Positions 9,563-18,853 of a DNA stretch of 60,687 nucleotides are shown here, piece after piece (within the stretch, counting starts at the first letter, position 1; each line of letters starts with the position of its first letter). The stretch is taken from assembly GCF_002379365.1 (NCBI RefSeq), contig NZ_JQIU01000008.1:1340909-1401595 (forward strand). The letters are read 5' to 3'. Under the pieces are notes generated by a model, which was not told the origin of the DNA, searched no databases, and saw nothing but the letters and a program-made list of their open reading frames with translations. This DNA is from Brachyspira sp. G79 (GTDB lineage: Bacteria; Spirochaetota; Brachyspiria; Brachyspirales; Brachyspiraceae). A program made the translations under genes and the position numbers.

Positions 9563-10651
9563 TTATATATTAGATACTATAATATCACCCATTTCAGAAC
9601 ATCTTACCTGTTTATACAAATAAGTCATCATATTATGTTTAGGCATAATATCAGCAGTTCTATATCCTTCATCTATAGCCTTATAAACGGCATCTTCTAT
9701 GGCTTCTGCTTCATTAAACATACCAAAAGAATATCTGAACATCATAGCAAGAGAAAGTATAGTACCTATAGGATTAGCCAAATCCTTACCTGCAATATCA
9801 GGAGCAGAACCATGTATAGGCTCATACATACCAACAGATCCGTCAGAAAGACTAGCAGAAGGAGCCATTCCTATAGAACCGCTTATAATACTTGCCTCAT
9901 CAGAAAGTATATCTCCAAACATATTTTCTGTAACTATAACTCCAAACTGCGAAGGATTAGCAGTTATCTGCATAGCAGCATTATCAACATACATGTCATT
10001 ATACTGAACATCGCTGTATTCTTTAGAGAGATTATTCATAATTTCACGCCATAATTTTGAAGTATGAAGAACATTGGCTTTATCTACAGAAGTTAAAGGT
10101 TTTTTAAGATTTCTAGCCAAATCAAAAGCTACTTTTCCTATTCTTAATATCTCATCTTCTTTATAAACCATAAGATCAGTTGCCTGTCTTACTCCATTAA
10201 CTACTTCAAATTTATGCTCACCAAAATATACGCCTCCTGTGAGCTCTCTTACAATAACAAAATCAACTACATCTTTACATATACTTTCTTTAAGAGGAGA
10301 AGCATATTCTAAAGATTTTAATATTTTTATAGGTCTTATATTGGCATATAATCCCATACCTTTACGAAGTTTTAATAAACCTCTTTCTGGTCTGTTTTCT
10401 GGAGCTACTTTATCCCATTTAGGACCTCCAACAGAACCTAAAAGCACAGAATCAGACTTAATACATTTTTCTAAATTTTCATCAGTAAGAGGAACTCCGT
10501 ATTTATCAATGGAGCAGCCTCCCATATCAACATATTCTAAATTAAACTTATGAGAATATTTTTCAGCTATTTTATTTAATACATCAATAGCTTTGTCTAC
10601 TATTTCAGGACCTACTCCATCTCCTTTAATAACAACAATATTTTTTTCCAT
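9563..10651 (-). CDS. leuB: 3-isopropylmalate dehydrogenase
   Basis: Oxidative decarboxylation of 3-isopropylmalate to 2-oxoisocaproate with NAD, the third step of leucine synthesis. It has 362 residues, the usual length. The sequence shows KGDGVGPEI at the N terminus, the RPERGLLKLRKGMGLYANIRP substrate segment (given here in two halves: RPERGLL, then LYANIRP), the VRELTGGVYFG motif, and the NMFGDILSDEAS metal-binding segment (Asp residues) followed by GSAPDIAGK for NAD binding. It starts six bases after the leuD stop and is the last gene of leuCDB. It is cytoplasmic and probably homodimeric. Confidence 0.97.
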   Translation of the reverse strand: MEKNIVVIKGDGVGPEIVDKAIDVLNKIAEKYSHKFNLEYVDMGGCSIDKYGVPLTDENLEKCIKSDSVLLGSVGGPKWDKVAPENRPERGLLKLRKGMGLYANIRPIKILKSLEYASPLKESICKDVVDFVIVRELTGGVYFGEHKFEVVNGVRQATDLMVYKEDEILRIGKVAFDLARNLKKPLTSVDKANVLHTSKLWREIMNNLSKEYSDVQYNDMYVDNAAMQITANPSQFGVIVTENMFGDILSDEASIISGSIGMAPSASLSDGSVGMYEPIHGSAPDIAGKDLANPIGTILSLAMMFRYSFGMFNEAEAIEDAVYKAIDEGYRTADIMPKHNMMTYLYKQVRCSEMGDIIVSNI

Positions 10652-10657
10652 AAATAA

Positions 10658-11146
10658 TTACCCCTTATTCTTTATAGAGTTCAAAAGCCCATTAGAGTTA
10701 ATGATATTTTTAATAAACTCTGGGAAAGGCTCTGCTTTATAGCTTTCATTTTTAGTAATATTTGTTATAACGCCGCTGTCAAAATCAACTTCAACTTCAT
10801 CTCCATTATCTATTTTTTTGCTTGCCTCTTCGCATTCAAGTATTGCAAGCCCTATATTAATAGAGTTTCTGTAAAATATTCTGGCAAAAGAAGAAGCTAT
10901 AACGCAGGATATACCAGATTCTTTAATGGCAATGGGAGCATGCTCTCTTGAAGAACCGCATCCGAAATTCTCTCCTCCTACCATTATATCGCCTTTCTTT
11001 ACCTTGCTTACAAAATCTTTATCAATATCTTCCATACAATGAGCTGCTAACTCTTTATGATTTGCAGTATTTAAATATCTTGCTGGAATAATAACATCAG
11101 TATCAACATTATTTCCATATTTATGAACGAAACCTCTAGCTTTCAT
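10658..11146 (-). CDS. leuD: 3-isopropylmalate dehydratase small subunit
   Basis: At 162 residues this is the short, archaeal/clostridial-type LeuD (the E. coli form is about 200). It contributes the swivelling domain of isopropylmalate isomerase, which works with LeuC. The diagnostic [13 protein letters not shown] near residue 16 and [15 protein letters not shown] near residue 57 are present. It lies between leuC (44-bp gap) and leuB (6-bp gap) in one leftward operon. Its compact form matches the equally compact LeuC next to it. Confidence 0.96.
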
Positions 11147-11190: not shown

Positions 11191-12438
11191 TTATTTAGGC
11201 TCTGTTATATATCCAGTCAAAGCACTGTATGCAGCAGTAGCTGGACTAGCTAAATATACTTTAGAAGTTTTATCTCCCATTCTTCCTACAAAGTTTCTAT
11301 TAGTTGTAGTAACAGCAACCTCATCATGGGCAAGTATTCCCATATATCCGCCTAAACAAGGTCCGCAAGTAGGAGTAGATACTGCACAGCCTGCATCAAT
11401 AAATATATCCATATAGCCTAATTTTATGCATTCTTTATATACTTTCTGAGTAGCTGGTATAATTATGCATCTTACATTTTTAGCTATTTTCTTTCCTTTT
11501 AAGATGTTTGCAGCAGTAGCCATATCAGACAATCTTCCATTAGTACAAGAACCAATAACAACTTGATCAACTTTTATATCTTTTAATTCTTTAGCATCTT
11601 TTGTGTTTTCTGGTAAATGAGGACAAGCTACTGTAGGCTCTATTGAAGATAAATCAATATCATATTCTTTTTCATATACCGCATCATCATCAGCTTTAAA
11701 AATAGTATAATCTCTTTTTACTATATCTTTTAAGTATTCTATAGTTTGATTATCTACTTCAAATATTCCGTTTTTAGCACCTGCCTCAATAGCCATATTA
11801 GCAATACAAGCCCTATCGTCCATAGTAAGAGATGAAACACCTTCTCCTCTAAACTCCATAGATTTATATAAAGCACCGTCAACACCTATCATACCTATAA
11901 TATGAAGTATAACATCTTTACCAGATACATTTGGCTTTAATTTACCTTTAAGATTAAATTTAATAGCAGAAGGCACCTTAAACCAAACCTGACCTGTAGC
12001 CATAGCAGCAGCCATATCAGTGCTTCCAACACCTGTAGAAAAAGCCCCAAAAGCTCCGTAAGTACAAGTATGAGAATCAGCACCTATTATAACCTCTCCT
12101 GGAGCAACTAATCCTTTTTCTGGTAAAAGAGCATGCTCAACTCCCATATCGCCTACATCATAGTAGTTGGTAATATCATATTTATTTGCAAAATCTCTGC
12201 ATTGTTTGCATTGTTCTGCAGCTTTAATATCTTTATTAGGAGCAAAGTGATCCATAACCAAAGCTATTTTTTCTTTATCAAAAACCTTATCAAAACCGTA
12301 TTTTTCAAATTCATTAATTGCAACAGGACTTGTTATATCATTTCCTAAAACCAAATCAGTTTTAACCATAATAAGCTCGCCTGCTTCAACCTTATCAACA
12401 CCTGCATGTGCTGCTAAAATTTTTTGAGTAATAGTCAT
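11191..12438 (-). CDS. leuC: 3-isopropylmalate dehydratase large subunit
   Basis: This 415-residue aconitase-family protein carries the [4Fe-4S] cluster of isopropylmalate isomerase. Cluster cysteines are in IGSCTNGR and in [19 protein letters not shown] and [20 protein letters not shown] (20 residues) are the conserved substrate-site segments. The length fits the short LeuC type that pairs with the 162-residue LeuD. AAGGAT upstream is the ribosome site. A terminator hairpin lies between leuA and this gene (12455-12494), so leuCDB is either expressed by read-through or has its own promoter inside the end of leuA. Confidence 0.97.
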
Positions 12439-12506: not shown

Positions 12507-14006
12507 TTATAATTTATTCAAGCCGTTAATATAAGCCATCAAACTGGCCTCTATAATATCTGTACTAACTGCTCTTCCTATAACTGTTTTATCATCAGAA
12601 GACAATCTGACAATAACCTCTCCCAAAGCATCTTCTCCCTCTGTAATAGCATTAATACTGTAATTAACCAATTTAGCTCTATTTGAAGTAAGAGAATCTA
12701 TAGCTCCAAATGCTGCATCTATAGGACCGTTTCCTTTACCTATAGCCTCAACAATGTTTTCTTTATTGTCAAGTATAGATACTGAAGCAAAAGATGATAT
12801 AGAATCGCTGTCATTAACCATAAAACTTTTTAAAGTATACATAGGGTTTTCTATACTAGCATTATTTCCTATTAGCAAAGCCTCTATATCAGTATCAGTA
12901 ACTATTTTTTTCTTATCTGCTAAGTTCTTAAACTTGATAAAAGCCTCTTCCAAAGTCTTATCATCAATATCATAACCTAAAGATTCTATTCTGTCTTTAA
13001 AAGCATGCTTTCCAGAATGTTTACCCAATACCATTTTATTCTGAGGTATTCCTATATCTTCAACATTCATAATCTCATAAGTAGAACGTTCTTTTAATAC
13101 TCCATGCTGATGAATGCCAGCCTCATGAGCAAAAGCATTAGCACCAACTATAGCCTTATTAGGAGCAACTACCATACCTGATATAGTAGATAATAATTTT
13201 GAAATTTTATAAATACGTTTTGTATTAACATCAGTATAAGCATTATAAAAATCTTTTCTGGTTTTAATACCCATTACAATTTCTTCCAAACTAGTATTAC
13301 CCGCACGCTCTCCTATACCATTAATAGTACATTCCACCTGAGTAGCACCAGCCAAAACAGCCGATAAAGAATTAGCAGTACCAAGTCCCAAATCGTCATG
13401 ACAATGCACAGATATATCAACATTATCTATACCCTTAACATTAGCTTTTAAATACTTAATAAGTTCAGCCATTTCTAAAGGAGTAGTATATCCTACAGTG
13501 TCTGGAACATTGATTGTAGTAGCTCCATTTTCTATGGCTGCTGAATATGCCTGAACTAAAAAGTCTTTATCACTTCTTGAAGCATCTTCAGCAGAAAACT
13601 CTATAAACTCAAATTTTGTTTTAGCATAAGAAACAGATTCTTTTATTGTTTCCAATACCTGCTCTCTGGTCATCTCTAATTTATGCTTTAAATGTATATC
13701 ACTTGTAGCTATAAAAGTATGAAGCATCGGGTGTTTAGCCTCAGCAAGTGCTTCATAGGCTCTATCTATATCTTTTTTATTGCATCTTGCCAAGCTAGCT
13801 AGCTTAGCATTTTCTACAACCTTGCTTACTTCTCTTATAGCATTAAAGTCATCATCAGAACATATAGCAAAACCAGCCTCTATAACATCAACGCCTAATT
13901 TATCAAGCTCGGATGCCATCTCTAATTTTTCTTCTAAATTCATAGTACAACCAGGAGATTGTTCTCCATCTCTTAAAGTAGTATCAAAAATCTTAATCTT
14001 TCTCAT
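12507..14006 (-). CDS. leuA: 2-isopropylmalate synthase
   Basis: The enzyme condenses acetyl-CoA with 2-oxoisovalerate, the committed step of leucine synthesis. It has 499 residues. The catalytic TIM barrel opens with DTTLRDGEQSPG, and the metal ligands HCHDD and the GIGERAGN motif follow. The KxxxGxHSGKHA segment links to a C-terminal regulatory domain of about 110 residues that in the family binds leucine for feedback inhibition. It is separated from ilvC by a repeat element (14098-14339) and from leuC by a terminator, so it may be its own unit. AAGGG about nine bases upstream of ATG is the likely ribosome site. Confidence 0.96.
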   Translation of the reverse strand: MRKIKIFDTTLRDGEQSPGCTMNLEEKLEMASELDKLGVDVIEAGFAICSDDDFNAIREVSKVVENAKLASLARCNKKDIDRAYEALAEAKHPMLHTFIATSDIHLKHKLEMTREQVLETIKESVSYAKTKFEFIEFSAEDASRSDKDFLVQAYSAAIENGATTINVPDTVGYTTPLEMAELIKYLKANVKGIDNVDISVHCHDDLGLGTANSLSAVLAGATQVECTINGIGERAGNTSLEEIVMGIKTRKDFYNAYTDVNTKRIYKISKLLSTISGMVVAPNKAIVGANAFAHEAGIHQHGVLKERSTYEIMNVEDIGIPQNKMVLGKHSGKHAFKDRIESLGYDIDDKTLEEAFIKFKNLADKKKIVTDTDIEALLIGNNASIENPMYTLKSFMVNDSDSISSFASVSILDNKENIVEAIGKGNGPIDAAFGAIDSLTSNRAKLVNYSINAITEGEDALGEVIVRLSSDDKTVIGRAVSTDIIEASLMAYINGLNKL

Positions 14007-14349
14007 TGTTAAAACCCTTATAATAAAAACATCATTTATAACTAAAGATGCTTTGGATTATAAAAAATATTTATTATAATATATAACTAAACAACTATAG
14101 TTTGTCAAAAAATATTTTTTAAATTCAAAATATTTGCGGGGCTTTGCCCCCGCTCTGCATGCCGACGAAGTCCACCTTTGGTGTCAGTAACCCCAGTTCT
14201 TTTGGACACTGTCCGTGCCATAGGCAGGCGTGGTACAGGCACAGCCCGCCTGCAGCGAAAGAACTGCATTTTACGAATTCCGTCAGTGGTGTGCGGTGAG
14301 AAAAAGTTGAATAAAAAATTACAAACTTAAAAATTTTCAGCATATATTA
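14007..14349. other. leuA upstream region plus repeat insertion; no gene
   Basis: This 343-bp stretch holds the leuA leader (14007-14097, AT-rich, with no convincing promoter pair) and the repeat element at 14098-14339. A 72-codon open frame across the repeat is a by-product of its GC-rich core and has no ribosome site. Confidence 0.6.
14098..14339. repeat. Dispersed GC-rich intergenic repeat, fullest copy
   Basis: The left end TAGTTTGTCAAAAAAT and right end TTACAAACTTAAAAATTT are roughly inverted copies. The interior is strikingly GC-rich for this genome, with a GCGGGGC/GCCCCCGC hairpin at 14136-14153. The core at 14234-14270 matches, as its complement, 8139-8170 (ATGCAGT.CTTTCGC ... CGGGCTGTGCCTG) and aligns with copies at 34984-35055 and 50718-50757. 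It is inserted between ilvC and leuA. No coding capacity. Confidence 0.72.
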
Positions 14350-15905
<1,556 letters not shown>

Positions 15906-15924: not shown

Positions 15925-17598
15925 TTAATCTACTATTATATCATCTATAGTTCCGCCAGCTGGTATCATAGGCAAAACTCTTAAATCTTTATCTATAATA
16001 CATTCTATCCATACAGGACATTTACATTTTAAAGCCTCTTCAAAAGCCTCTTCAAATTCTTTTATAGTTTCACATCGAAAACCTTTGGCTCCAAAACCTT
16101 CTGCAACTTTTACATAATCCATTTTTTTATTTATATCAGTACTTGAATATCTTTTATCATAAAATATAGTCTGCCATTGTCTAACCATACCTAATGTACT
16201 GTTATTGAGTATTATTGTTATAACAGGCAATTCATATTCAACAGCAGTAGCTACTTCATTTAAGTTCATATAAAAAGAGCCATCCCCTGTTATATGTATT
16301 ACTCTTCTATCTGGTTTAGCAAACTGACAGCCTAAAGCAGCACCGTATCCGAATCCCATAGTACCCAAACCTCCGCTCGTTATAAAACTTCTAGGTTTAG
16401 TATGCCTTATATACTGAACAGCCCACATTTGATGCTGACCTACATCTGTAACATAAATAGCCTCGTCTTTAGTTTTTTCTCCTATTATATCCATAACCTT
16501 ACTAGGATAAATTCCGTCTTTATTGGTATTCCTGTCAGAATCCTCTTTCATCTCTTTAGCTCTTAAGTCTGATAGATATTTTACCCATTCATCATCATCT
16601 ACTCTTTTTACTAATTTATTAAATCTATCTAATACATCGTTCAAATCACCAATTATACTGTAATCAACATTAACATTCTTATTAATCTCGCTTCTGTCAA
16701 TATCTATATGAATCTTTTTAGCAACTCCTCCAAATTTAGAAGTATTTAAAGCAACTCTGTCGCTGAATCTTGTACCTACAGCAAGTATCAAATCGGCTTC
16801 ATTCATTACTTTATTTGCAGTAGCAGATCCATGCATTCCTAAAAGTCCTATGTTCAATTTTTCATTATATCCTAATACTCCAGCCCCCATTAATGTATGT
16901 ACTGAAGGTATATTAGAATTAATCATAAACTCTCTTAATTTATTGCTTGAGTCTTTTGCCCCACCTCCAAAATATATAATAGGTCTTTTAGATTCATTTA
17001 TTAATTTTGCAACTAACTCTATAGTTTTTTCATCTTCTGCACTTATCTCTGCTTGTTTTGGAGAAAACTTTTCTCTTTTAATAAACTCTGTTTCTGCCAA
17101 TGTGAAATTTTTTGGTATATCTATTAAAACAGGTCCTTTTCTTCCATTATTTGCTATTACAAATGCTTTTCTTATAGTGTTTGCAAGTTCATTGATATCT
17201 CTGACAACAAAATTATGTTTAGTTATAGGCATTGTTATACCTGCAATAAAAACTTCCTGAAATGAATCTTTTCCTATCAAACTTTCAGGAACATTAGCTG
17301 TTATTGCAACTAAAGGTACACTGTCCATATAAGCAGTAGCTAAAGGTGTTACCAAATTAGTAGCTCCAGGTCCGCTTGTAGCAATTACAACACCTGTTTT
17401 TCCGCTTGCTCTGGCATAACCGTCAGCAGCATGACATGCCCCTACTTCATCTACAGGCATTATATGTTTTATTTTATCTCTATATTTATAGATAGCATCA
17501 TATATAAATAAAGCTGCACCGCCCGGATATCCGAATACAGTGTCTACCCCTTCTTCTATTAAAACTTCCATTATTATTTCTGAACCATTCAACTTCAT
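15925..17598 (-). CDS. ilvB: Acetolactate synthase large subunit
   Basis: A 557-residue thiamine-diphosphate enzyme forming acetolactate and acetohydroxybutyrate from pyruvate and 2-oxobutyrate. The N-terminal domain has the catalytic Glu in PVDEVGACHAADGYARA, the middle domain binds FAD, and the C-terminal ThDP motif runs from GDGSFYMN to LNN. A clear AAGGAG (17605-17610) sits seven bases before ATG. Upstream lies a leader peptide gene (17727-17876) rich in Ile, Leu and Val codons, pointing to control of the whole ilvBNC operon by charged branched-chain tRNA supply. No ilvD or ilvE lies in the window. Confidence 0.97.
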   Translation of the reverse strand: MKLNGSEIIMEVLIEEGVDTVFGYPGGAALFIYDAIYKYRDKIKHIMPVDEVGACHAADGYARASGKTGVVIATSGPGATNLVTPLATAYMDSVPLVAITANVPESLIGKDSFQEVFIAGITMPITKHNFVVRDINELANTIRKAFVIANNGRKGPVLIDIPKNFTLAETEFIKREKFSPKQAEISAEDEKTIELVAKLINESKRPIIYFGGGAKDSSNKLREFMINSNIPSVHTLMGAGVLGYNEKLNIGLLGMHGSATANKVMNEADLILAVGTRFSDRVALNTSKFGGVAKKIHIDIDRSEINKNVNVDYSIIGDLNDVLDRFNKLVKRVDDDEWVKYLSDLRAKEMKEDSDRNTNKDGIYPSKVMDIIGEKTKDEAIYVTDVGQHQMWAVQYIRHTKPRSFITSGGLGTMGFGYGAALGCQFAKPDRRVIHITGDGSFYMNLNEVATAVEYELPVITIILNNSTLGMVRQWQTIFYDKRYSSTDINKKMDYVKVAEGFGAKGFRCETIKEFEEAFEEALKCKCPVWIECIIDKDLRVLPMIPAGGTIDDIIVD

Positions 17599-17726
17599 AA
17601 CAAACTCCTTAAATTATTTTATAGCCTTTTTAAATTTTATCATTGGTATTTCTATTCATAGAAACTTTATTATAAAACTATGTTAACTTAAATAAAATTG
17701 TATTATATTTTTAGATATTGGATTAA
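17599..17726 (-). promoter_or_regulatory. ilvB leader RNA between leader peptide and ilvB
   Basis: A 128-base untranslated stretch between the leader peptide stop and ilvB. I see no strong GC-rich terminator, only a weak hairpin (TTTCT/AGAAA near 17656-17673). The leader codons contain CTCCT, which is complementary to the AGGAG of the ilvB ribosome site, so translational attenuation is an alternative to transcription attenuation. This is an inference from complementarity only. Confidence 0.4.
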
Positions 17727-17876
17727 TTATAACAGGATATTGACAAGAATAGAGAGGAGAATATTGAGAATAATATTTTTTATTGATTTATTAGAATTAT
17801 TAAAATTAATTGCAGATGAGATTTGTTTAATAAAAACAGAATCATAGGTCATACTGTAAGCAGGTGACATTTTCAT
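17727..17876 (-). CDS. Branched-chain leader peptide of the ilvBNC operon
   Basis: A 49-codon reading frame missed by length cut-offs. It has a good AGGAG (17888-17884) seven bases before ATG 17876. The last 15 residues are IILNILLSILVNILL, so 12 of 15 are Ile, Leu or Val. The Leu codons there are CTC three times, CTT, CTG and TTA, and Val is GTC, although this AT-rich genome favours TTA and GTT/GTA; slow-decoded codons are typical of attenuation leaders. A promoter at 17906-17933 precedes it. The peptide itself need have no function; ribosome stalling on these codons when charged tRNA is scarce would switch on ilvB, which starts 128 bases later. The first 30 residues are not notable. Confidence 0.78.
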   Translation of the reverse strand: MKMSPAYSMTYDSVFIKQISSAINFNNSNKSIKNIILNILLSILVNILL

Positions 17877-17905
17877 CTTCTTTCTCCTTTCGATATTTGA
17901 TACAT

Positions 17906-17933
17906 ATTATAATATTTTTGAGTAATATTGCAA
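17906..17933 (-). promoter_or_regulatory. Promoter of the ilv leader and operon
   Basis: Read leftward, TTGCAA (17933-17928), a 16-bp spacer and TATAAT (17911-17906). Transcription would begin near 17899, about 23 bases before the leader peptide start. It is divergent from the sanA promoter 45 bp away. Confidence 0.65.
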
Positions 17934-17977
17934 TACTTAAAAACAATTTTTTTATTAACTTTTAATGTTTATTATAA

Positions 17978-18005
17978 TTGACAATATAAATTATTTTAGT
18001 ATACT
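17978..18005 (+). promoter_or_regulatory. Sigma-70-type promoter of sanA
   Basis: TTGACA (17978-17983), 16-bp spacer, TATACT (18000-18005). Transcription would begin near 18012, which rules out the upstream in-frame ATG at 17965 and favours ATG 18034. Confidence 0.65.
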
Positions 18006-18033
18006 AATTCATAAAGCTAATAATGCAGGATTT

Positions 18034-18853
18034 ATGAAGATATTAAAAAACAGATACAAGAAAAAAATATTAGAAATAAAAAATAATAAATCTCTTATAA
18101 AAGAAACTGTTAAAAACAAATCTTTTTTTAATAAATTTATTAATTATATCATTTTTATATTTTTATCCGTATATAAATTTATACCTGAAATTATAATACT
18201 TTCTATTTTTTTTATATCAGCATTGTATTTATCAGTATCATTATACTCAAAAAAAATATATATACTCTTCTATAGAAAAAATACCATACAATGATGTTGC
18301 CTTAGTACTTGGCACAAGTAAATATTTATATAATGGGAAAATAAATATGTATTTCAAATTTAGAATGGATGCTGCTTATGAATTATACAAAAGCGGAAAA
18401 GTAAAGTATATACTTGTAAGCGGTGATAACAGACACAGATCCTACAATGAACCTAGACAAATGCGTCTTGATCTAATAAAATTAGGCGTAGATAAAAAAC
18501 ATATATTTCTTGATTTTGCTGGGTTTAGAACTAGAGATTCCATTATAAGAGCTAATAAAGTTTTTGAACTAACTAATTTTACTATAGTCTCTCAGCCTTT
18601 TCACAATGAAAGAGCAATACTTATAGCAAGGCAGAAAAAAATTGATGCAATAGCATATAATGCACATAATGTACGAAAACTATATAGATTAAGACAATTT
18701 CCAAGAGAAATAGGAGCTAGGGTTTTGATGTTTATTGATATTATATTAAACAGACCTCCGAAATTCTATGGAGACATTATAAAAATAGAAGAGCATGAAA
18801 ATACTATTATAAATAAAAGCAATAAACTCGATAAATCAAAAATAAAATCATAA
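18034..18853 (+). pseudogene. sanA: SanA/YdcF-family (DUF218) membrane protein, frameshifted at poly-A
   Basis: SanA-type proteins have a single membrane anchor and a DUF218 domain and affect envelope permeability (vancomycin sensitivity in E. coli). Frame 1 from ATG 18034 encodes a basic N terminus and the anchor, and stops at 18294. The domain continues in the next frame: PYNDVALVLGTSKYLYNG, KVKYILVSGDN, YNEPRQM, FLDFAGFRTRDSIIRA and QPFHNERA are classic SanA motifs. The switch falls in the A8 run at 18249-18256; seven A would restore one continuous protein of about 273 residues. The short 18347-18853 frame starting at an internal Met lacks the LVLGTSK strand and is not a natural gene. The cause is sequencing error, mutation or slippage. 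Confidence 0.85.

Follow-up and report, generated by a model that had tools for sequence, protein, structure and literature searches.

The nearest known architecture to the leader described here is the LEU element of the Actinobacteria, which is located before leuA and in which the run of Leu codons of a leader ORF pairs with the Shine-Dalgarno sequence (SD) of leuA, with no terminator described (PMC1262725). Mutations of the Leu codons in the leuA leader reportedly do not behave as classical attenuation predicts (PMC1262725). Similar to the LEU element, the leader found in Brachyspira has codons complementary to the SD of the downstream gene and no terminator; unlike the LEU element, it occurs in another phylum, precedes ilvB instead of leuA, and its codons can also pair with the SD of the leader itself. 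The LEU element further includes a pseudoknot, which the kind of consensus fold calculated for Brachyspira is unable to display. Among spirochaetes, the Leptospira ilvB motif (WRC-14-1) contains a predicted upstream ORF (uORF), rich in codons for branched-chain amino acids (BCAA), some 70 nt ahead of the main ORF (PMC8632094, PMC10272879). It shares with the Brachyspira leader both the phylum and the BCAA-rich uORF before ilvB but, as far as the two can be set side by side by description, differs in having a Val run, in being threonine-rich and in its seven representatives. The leucine-rich attenuator peptide of the S. aureus ilv-leu operon has Ile and Leu codons that are conserved genus-wide and a terminator 52 nt past the leader (PMC5794164), and the ilvBNC/ilvB-II attenuator of Corynebacterium combines a BCAA uORF with a strong terminator stem (PMC10272879). 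With the former, the Brachyspira locus shares a BCAA leader that precedes ilv and leu genes joined in one operon, and with the latter a BCAA uORF before ilvBNC, whereas neither the terminator of S. aureus nor the terminator stem of Corynebacterium is present. Control of a downstream operon by codons for its product amino acid, without an intrinsic terminator, was reportedly described by Canestrari in 2020 for mycobacterial polycysteine short ORFs, which differ from the Brachyspira leader in that they are leaderless and specify cysteine. A full-text search found no papers on BCAA leaders in Brachyspira within the limits of the library searched, and the present locus is a well-supported case of an amino-acid leader peptide for this spirochaete genus.

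The DNA analysed, here called the window, is a stretch of 60,687 nucleotides from Brachyspira sp. G79. An ORF of 49 amino acids (MKMSPAYSMTYDSVFIKQISSAINFNNSNKSIKNIILNILLSILVNILL) is located on its minus strand at 17727-17876, with an ATG start and the terminal residues IILNILLSILVNILL, as claimed in the original prediction. The good ribosome site and promoter attributed to it were also recovered: the SD is AAGGAG (17884-17889, minus strand), and the promoter consists of the -35 element TTGCAA (17928-17933, minus strand) and, at 16-nt spacing, the -10 element TATAAT (17906-17911, minus strand). These signals are kept in relatives, the promoter being near-identical in form in all aligned genomes; both promoter and SD are predicted from their match to the consensus, which does not in itself prove transcription or translation. 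According to the codon tables, the last 15 sense codons (17730-17774, minus strand) form a control-codon run in which 12 of 15 specify Ile, Leu or Val and which is rich in CTC, CTG, GTC and ATC. Within these codons lies an anti-SD element (ATTCTCCT, 17755-17762, minus strand) which, by folding and duplex energies, complements the leader SD (AGGAGAA) as well as the ilvB SD (AGGAG). The latter is part of AAGGAG at 17605-17610 (minus strand), the presumed regulatory target. Covariance models of the Rfam leader and T-box families gave no match at the gathering score in the window, in the leader region at a permissive E-value or in six relatives.

The genes behind the leader, all on the minus strand, start with ilvB for the large subunit of acetolactate synthase (15925-17598, Pfam TPP_enzyme N/M/C), ilvN for its small subunit (15378-15905, ACT_AHAS_ss and ALS_ss_C) and ilvC for ketol-acid reductoisomerase (14350-15345, KARI_N and KARI_C). 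The earlier assignment of the downstream genes as ilvBNC was correct but incomplete, since the same-strand row continues with leuA (2-isopropylmalate synthase, 12507-14006, Pfam HMGL-like and LeuA_dimer), leuC and leuD for the large and small subunits of isopropylmalate isomerase (11191-12438, Aconitase; 10658-11146, Aconitase_C) and leuB for isopropylmalate dehydrogenase (9563-10651, Iso_dh), the last three being assigned by Pfam domain and gene order. From this gene order we infer that ilvB-ilvN-ilvC-leuA-leuC-leuD-leuB are co-transcribed as one operon. Between ilvC and leuA, a G+C-rich element (14105-14320) stands out from DNA of 26% GC, and pieces of it of 36-64 nt are repeated at about 18 other sites of the genome. 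On the other side of the leader, a divergent DUF218 gene (17965-18853, plus strand) consists of two frames here and of one frame in several relatives, which reflects either a disrupted gene or a sequencing error.

IlvB was sought in 26 Brachyspira genomes and found in 25, with readable upstream DNA in 24. A leader ORF with ATG and SD precedes ilvB in all 24, and the sole genome without ilvB (G019) gave no leader match. The leaders are 24-52 amino acids long, lie 92-134 nt from ilvB and end in a run of Ile, Leu and Val, for example NILLSILVNIL(L) or SIILLSLIIIL, these residues occupying 10-12 of the last 15 codons (for L021 the start was tabulated three codons too far downstream, which leaves its tail unaffected). 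Within the 17-genome main clade, gap runs are a multiple of three in 30 of 30 cases inside the leader versus 14 of 100 in the spacer, and mean pairwise identity is highest in the tail (0.79), followed by the spacer (0.70) and the N-terminal part (0.64). The N-terminal DNA is thus no better conserved than the spacer; conservation applies to frame, start codon and tail. A degenerate pattern of the tail has exact matches in six named GTDB records, all from Brachyspira. The lack of conservation feared at the outset was therefore not encountered, frame and I/L/V run being kept in 24 of 24 genomes.

Conservation and the codon bias described below fully support the Ile/Leu/Val leader peptide proposed upstream of ilvB, and the ORF is almost certainly a BCAA leader peptide dominated by leucine. 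Short ORFs of this composition can be found elsewhere in AT-rich DNA, about 2.2 Mb containing four others that are preceded by an SD and have at least nine I/L/V in 12 residues, but an origin of the present frame by chance is refuted by its retention in 24 genomes, its frame-preserving gaps and its rare-codon score of 16.8. The hydrophobic C-terminus would also suit a small functional protein, such as a membrane peptide, that is located upstream of ilvB by chance. This explanation is very improbable in view of the drifting N-terminal part, the wide range of lengths, the restriction of the codon bias to the tail, and the strict position of the ORF and its co-occurrence with ilvB.

Codon use was compared with a reference of 301,489 codons from long ORFs of this genome, a count over 554,455 codons giving similar values. 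Rare codons are CTC and CTG (2.1% and about 1.7% of Leu), GTC (1.8% of Val) and ATC (3.8% of Ile). The genome-wide count thereby confirmed the rarity that had been assigned by eye to CTC, CTG and GTC and removed the objection that CTC and CTG might be common, but CTT, originally listed with them, is a common codon (28% of Leu). At least five CTC, CTG or GTC codons within any 15-codon stretch were found in none of 843 ORFs. A table of 17 distinct 15-codon tails (89 Leu, 92 Ile, 10 Val) showed CTC at 0.39 and CTG at 0.19 of Leu codons, versus 0.021 and 0.016 in the genome, GTC for 10 of 10 Val (genome 0.018), and ATA at only 0.03 of Ile codons (genome 0.667) with ATC at 0.24; since related genomes are not independent, these figures are not formal P values. 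Asn is unskewed (AAT 0.89 versus 0.85 in the genome), so the rare-codon bias is centred on the three product amino acids of the operon; the eight Phe codons of the tails also tilt toward TTC. The N-terminal parts contain one Leu in 612 codons versus about 49 expected at the genome rate, and a sensor that works by stalling would require just such a scarcity of Leu ahead of the control codons. The genome encodes tRNA Leu-GAG, which reads CTC and CTT, Leu-TAG, Ile-GAT, which reads ATT and ATC, and a single Val tRNA (TAC). Carter reportedly studied rare leucine codons in the Salmonella leu leader in 1986 (cited in PMC1183508), and the unusually clean genus-wide codon evidence from Brachyspira allows a direct test of ideas on attenuator codon choice.

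Intrinsic terminators were searched with a scan for a hairpin plus T-run, which finds 153 of 1831 gene ends and 0 of 1853 gene interiors and, as a positive control, 22 of 24 metY upstream regions. None of the 24 Brachyspira leaders has such a terminator before ilvB, which bears out the statement in the original prediction that no strong terminator is present there. With no terminator to oppose, there is no mutually exclusive antiterminator either, and the leader lacks both hallmarks of a classical trp/ilv-type attenuator. The spacer between leader and ilvB does contain a small hairpin (TTTCTA-TGAA-TAGAAA, 17649-17664, minus strand), visible in the alignment and the consensus fold. The 17 genomes of the main clade retain it, with a broken pair in one and no compensatory changes found, and the other two groups lack it; it may serve as a protein site. 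A helix between the leader tail and this hairpin (TCTATTC with GAATAGA) is perfect in the window genome and was rejected, as it is lost in several relatives in an alignment read by eye.

Outside Brachyspira, L141 (genome G073, same family; MQSLLVIIIIAILVAFYSVTQREA) and L139 (VTSIICNIVIIMIGAVIIMGCAPTS...) have what by eye are classical BCAA leaders followed by intrinsic terminators before ilvB, so within the phylum the BCAA leader occurs in both forms. Most other spirochaetes examined have no comparable leader before ilvB by the criteria of SD and I/L/V content. These two loci, and an intrinsic terminator that the genus itself places after a Met-rich leader before a metY-like gene, would favour classical transcription attenuation by a terminator that the scan misses because it is weak or atypical. 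Such a mechanism is nevertheless quite improbable for the Brachyspira ilv leaders, given the scan result in all 24 and the fact that the sole conserved spacer hairpin has no U-run and is missing from two groups. Rho-dependent transcription attenuation would dispense with a terminator hairpin: a finished leader would expose its pyrimidine-rich, G-poor tail and the spacer to Rho, and a stalled ribosome would mask them. Per 48 nt, the leader tails of all genomes contain 7-13 C and 1-4 G, the spacer is G-poor and rho is encoded in the genome, but the spacer is also C-poor (1-11% C), unlike known rut sites, and we consider this mechanism unlikely. The absence of an intrinsic terminator before ilvB would agree with it, and Rho has been proposed to act on the terminator-less mycobacterial cys leaders (PMC1262725).

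Involvement of the ilvB SD was explored by folding, the folds being equilibrium structures of RNA alone in which masks stand in for ribosomes. The partner preferred by the tail CTCCT in naked RNA is the leader SD, with a mean pairing probability of 0.72 versus 0.29 for the ilvB SD. Closure of the leader SD lies above the synonymous null in most of 15 genomes, and neither opening cost nor closure of the ilvB SD does so in this set. By duplex energy, the tail binds the leader SD more strongly than the synonymous null does in 23 of 24 leaders (p<0.1) and the ilvB SD in 11 of 24, and permutation of the codon order abolishes most of the excess. When a ribosome sits on the leader start, the tail pairs with the ilvB SD (mean 0.73), and opening this SD costs 4.5 kcal/mol (24 genomes). 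The pairing of CTCCT with the ilvB SD suggested by the original prediction is thus real in this state, but naked RNA favours the SD of the leader itself.

Stalling of a ribosome at 5-9 codons from the stop reduces the computed opening cost of the ilvB SD to about 1.9 kcal/mol. At the best stalled position the ilvB SD becomes more than 1 kcal/mol easier to open in 21 of 24 leaders, a somewhat flattering figure because it takes the best of four positions; with the ribosome fixed at 7 codons from the stop, the count is 20 of 24. L012, L018/L020 and L028 show little effect, and in many species a ribosome at two codons from the stop leaves the SD closed (mean 3.8 kcal/mol). The cost in the occupied state is ~2.2 kcal/mol above the synonymous null, and in 15 of 20 species at most 10% of the null leaders reach the real value. 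It is not above that of codon-order permutations (mean z 0.46), which produce similar sequestration in most species. The folds computed with and without a stalled ribosome differ in this way, but the real codon order has no advantage over permuted ones in most species, which means that there is no evidence of selection for the exact register and that the pairing of CTCCT with the ilvB SD may simply follow from the use of C-rich codons. Compensatory base changes supporting the pairing were not found. Codon choice thus makes the switch possible, and the switch may or may not be the reason for that choice. Stalling might also act without an RNA switch, for example by stabilisation of the mRNA, in which case the complementarity to both SDs would merely accompany the use of C-rich codons. 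The similar pairing of permuted tails and the specificity of the codon bias for Ile, Leu and Val agree with this explanation, but the preferred codons generate an anti-SD in nearly all species, and it appears improbable.

As an identification, leader-peptide control of the ilv-leu genes through the charging of BCAA tRNAs is nearly certain, and the leader probably turns the pathway on under shortage of Leu, Ile and Val. Translational attenuation is the most likely mechanism, with the Rho-dependent alternative ranked second. On the folding model, we give an even chance to the proposal that the leader controls ilvBNC-leuACDB through ribosome stalling with a translational output via the ilvB SD. 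With ample charged Leu, Ile and Val tRNA, ribosomes would finish the leader and leave, upon which CTCCT would re-pair with the ilvB SD and translation of ilvB would be low. Uncharged tRNAs would instead make a ribosome stall on the CTC, ATT, CTT, GTC, ATC or CTG codons and cover CTCCT, leaving the ilvB SD free. In the idle leader, CTCCT would close the leader's own SD. Combining these steps, the leader may be a self-closing device with three states in which a single CTCCT of rare Leu codons acts as anti-SD for the leader when idle and for ilvB when the start is occupied, with a starved ribosome opening ilvB; this fuller scheme is possible and is put forward tentatively. If it is true, the rare codons would be sensor and switch together, without a terminator.

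Additionally, other leader-like ORFs were found in spirochaetes and in this genome. L135 (genome G146), from the same family and with 61% IlvB identity, has an ORF rich in Ile and Leu (MLFKIKKNVSLKKEIINIILDIILKIILQSKIIQ...) that follows an SD and overlaps the start of ilvB, an arrangement that would point to translational coupling in this one genome. When about 2.2 Mb of the Brachyspira sp. G79 genome were searched for further BCAA leaders, four candidates emerged, all of them weaker, scoring lower for rare codons and located before unrelated-looking genes. Matches of the leader DNA to other places in the genome are short and AT-rich and were taken as chance. Another type of leader, rich in Met (MKSIIVMNQMHCLMQMCMFNNDGCII in this genome), precedes the metY-like gene, which encodes a PLP enzyme of Cys/Met metabolism (upstream region L227, G000:C8:1654112-1655404). 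If the ilvB ribosome site is the control point of the BCAA leader, the same genomes would have ilv-leu leader control without a terminator beside a leader of the terminator type. The Met-rich leader is conserved with the pattern VMN.M.CLMQM.MFNNDGC, occurring also in L228-L248, and is followed by a terminator of -15 kcal/mol. Its tail (GATGGCTG) can pair with the 5' arm of the terminator, the competing helix having -14.1 kcal/mol, and to judge from these features it looks like a textbook methionine attenuator. The more distant homologues L249 and L250 have a leader with Met-Met-Met.
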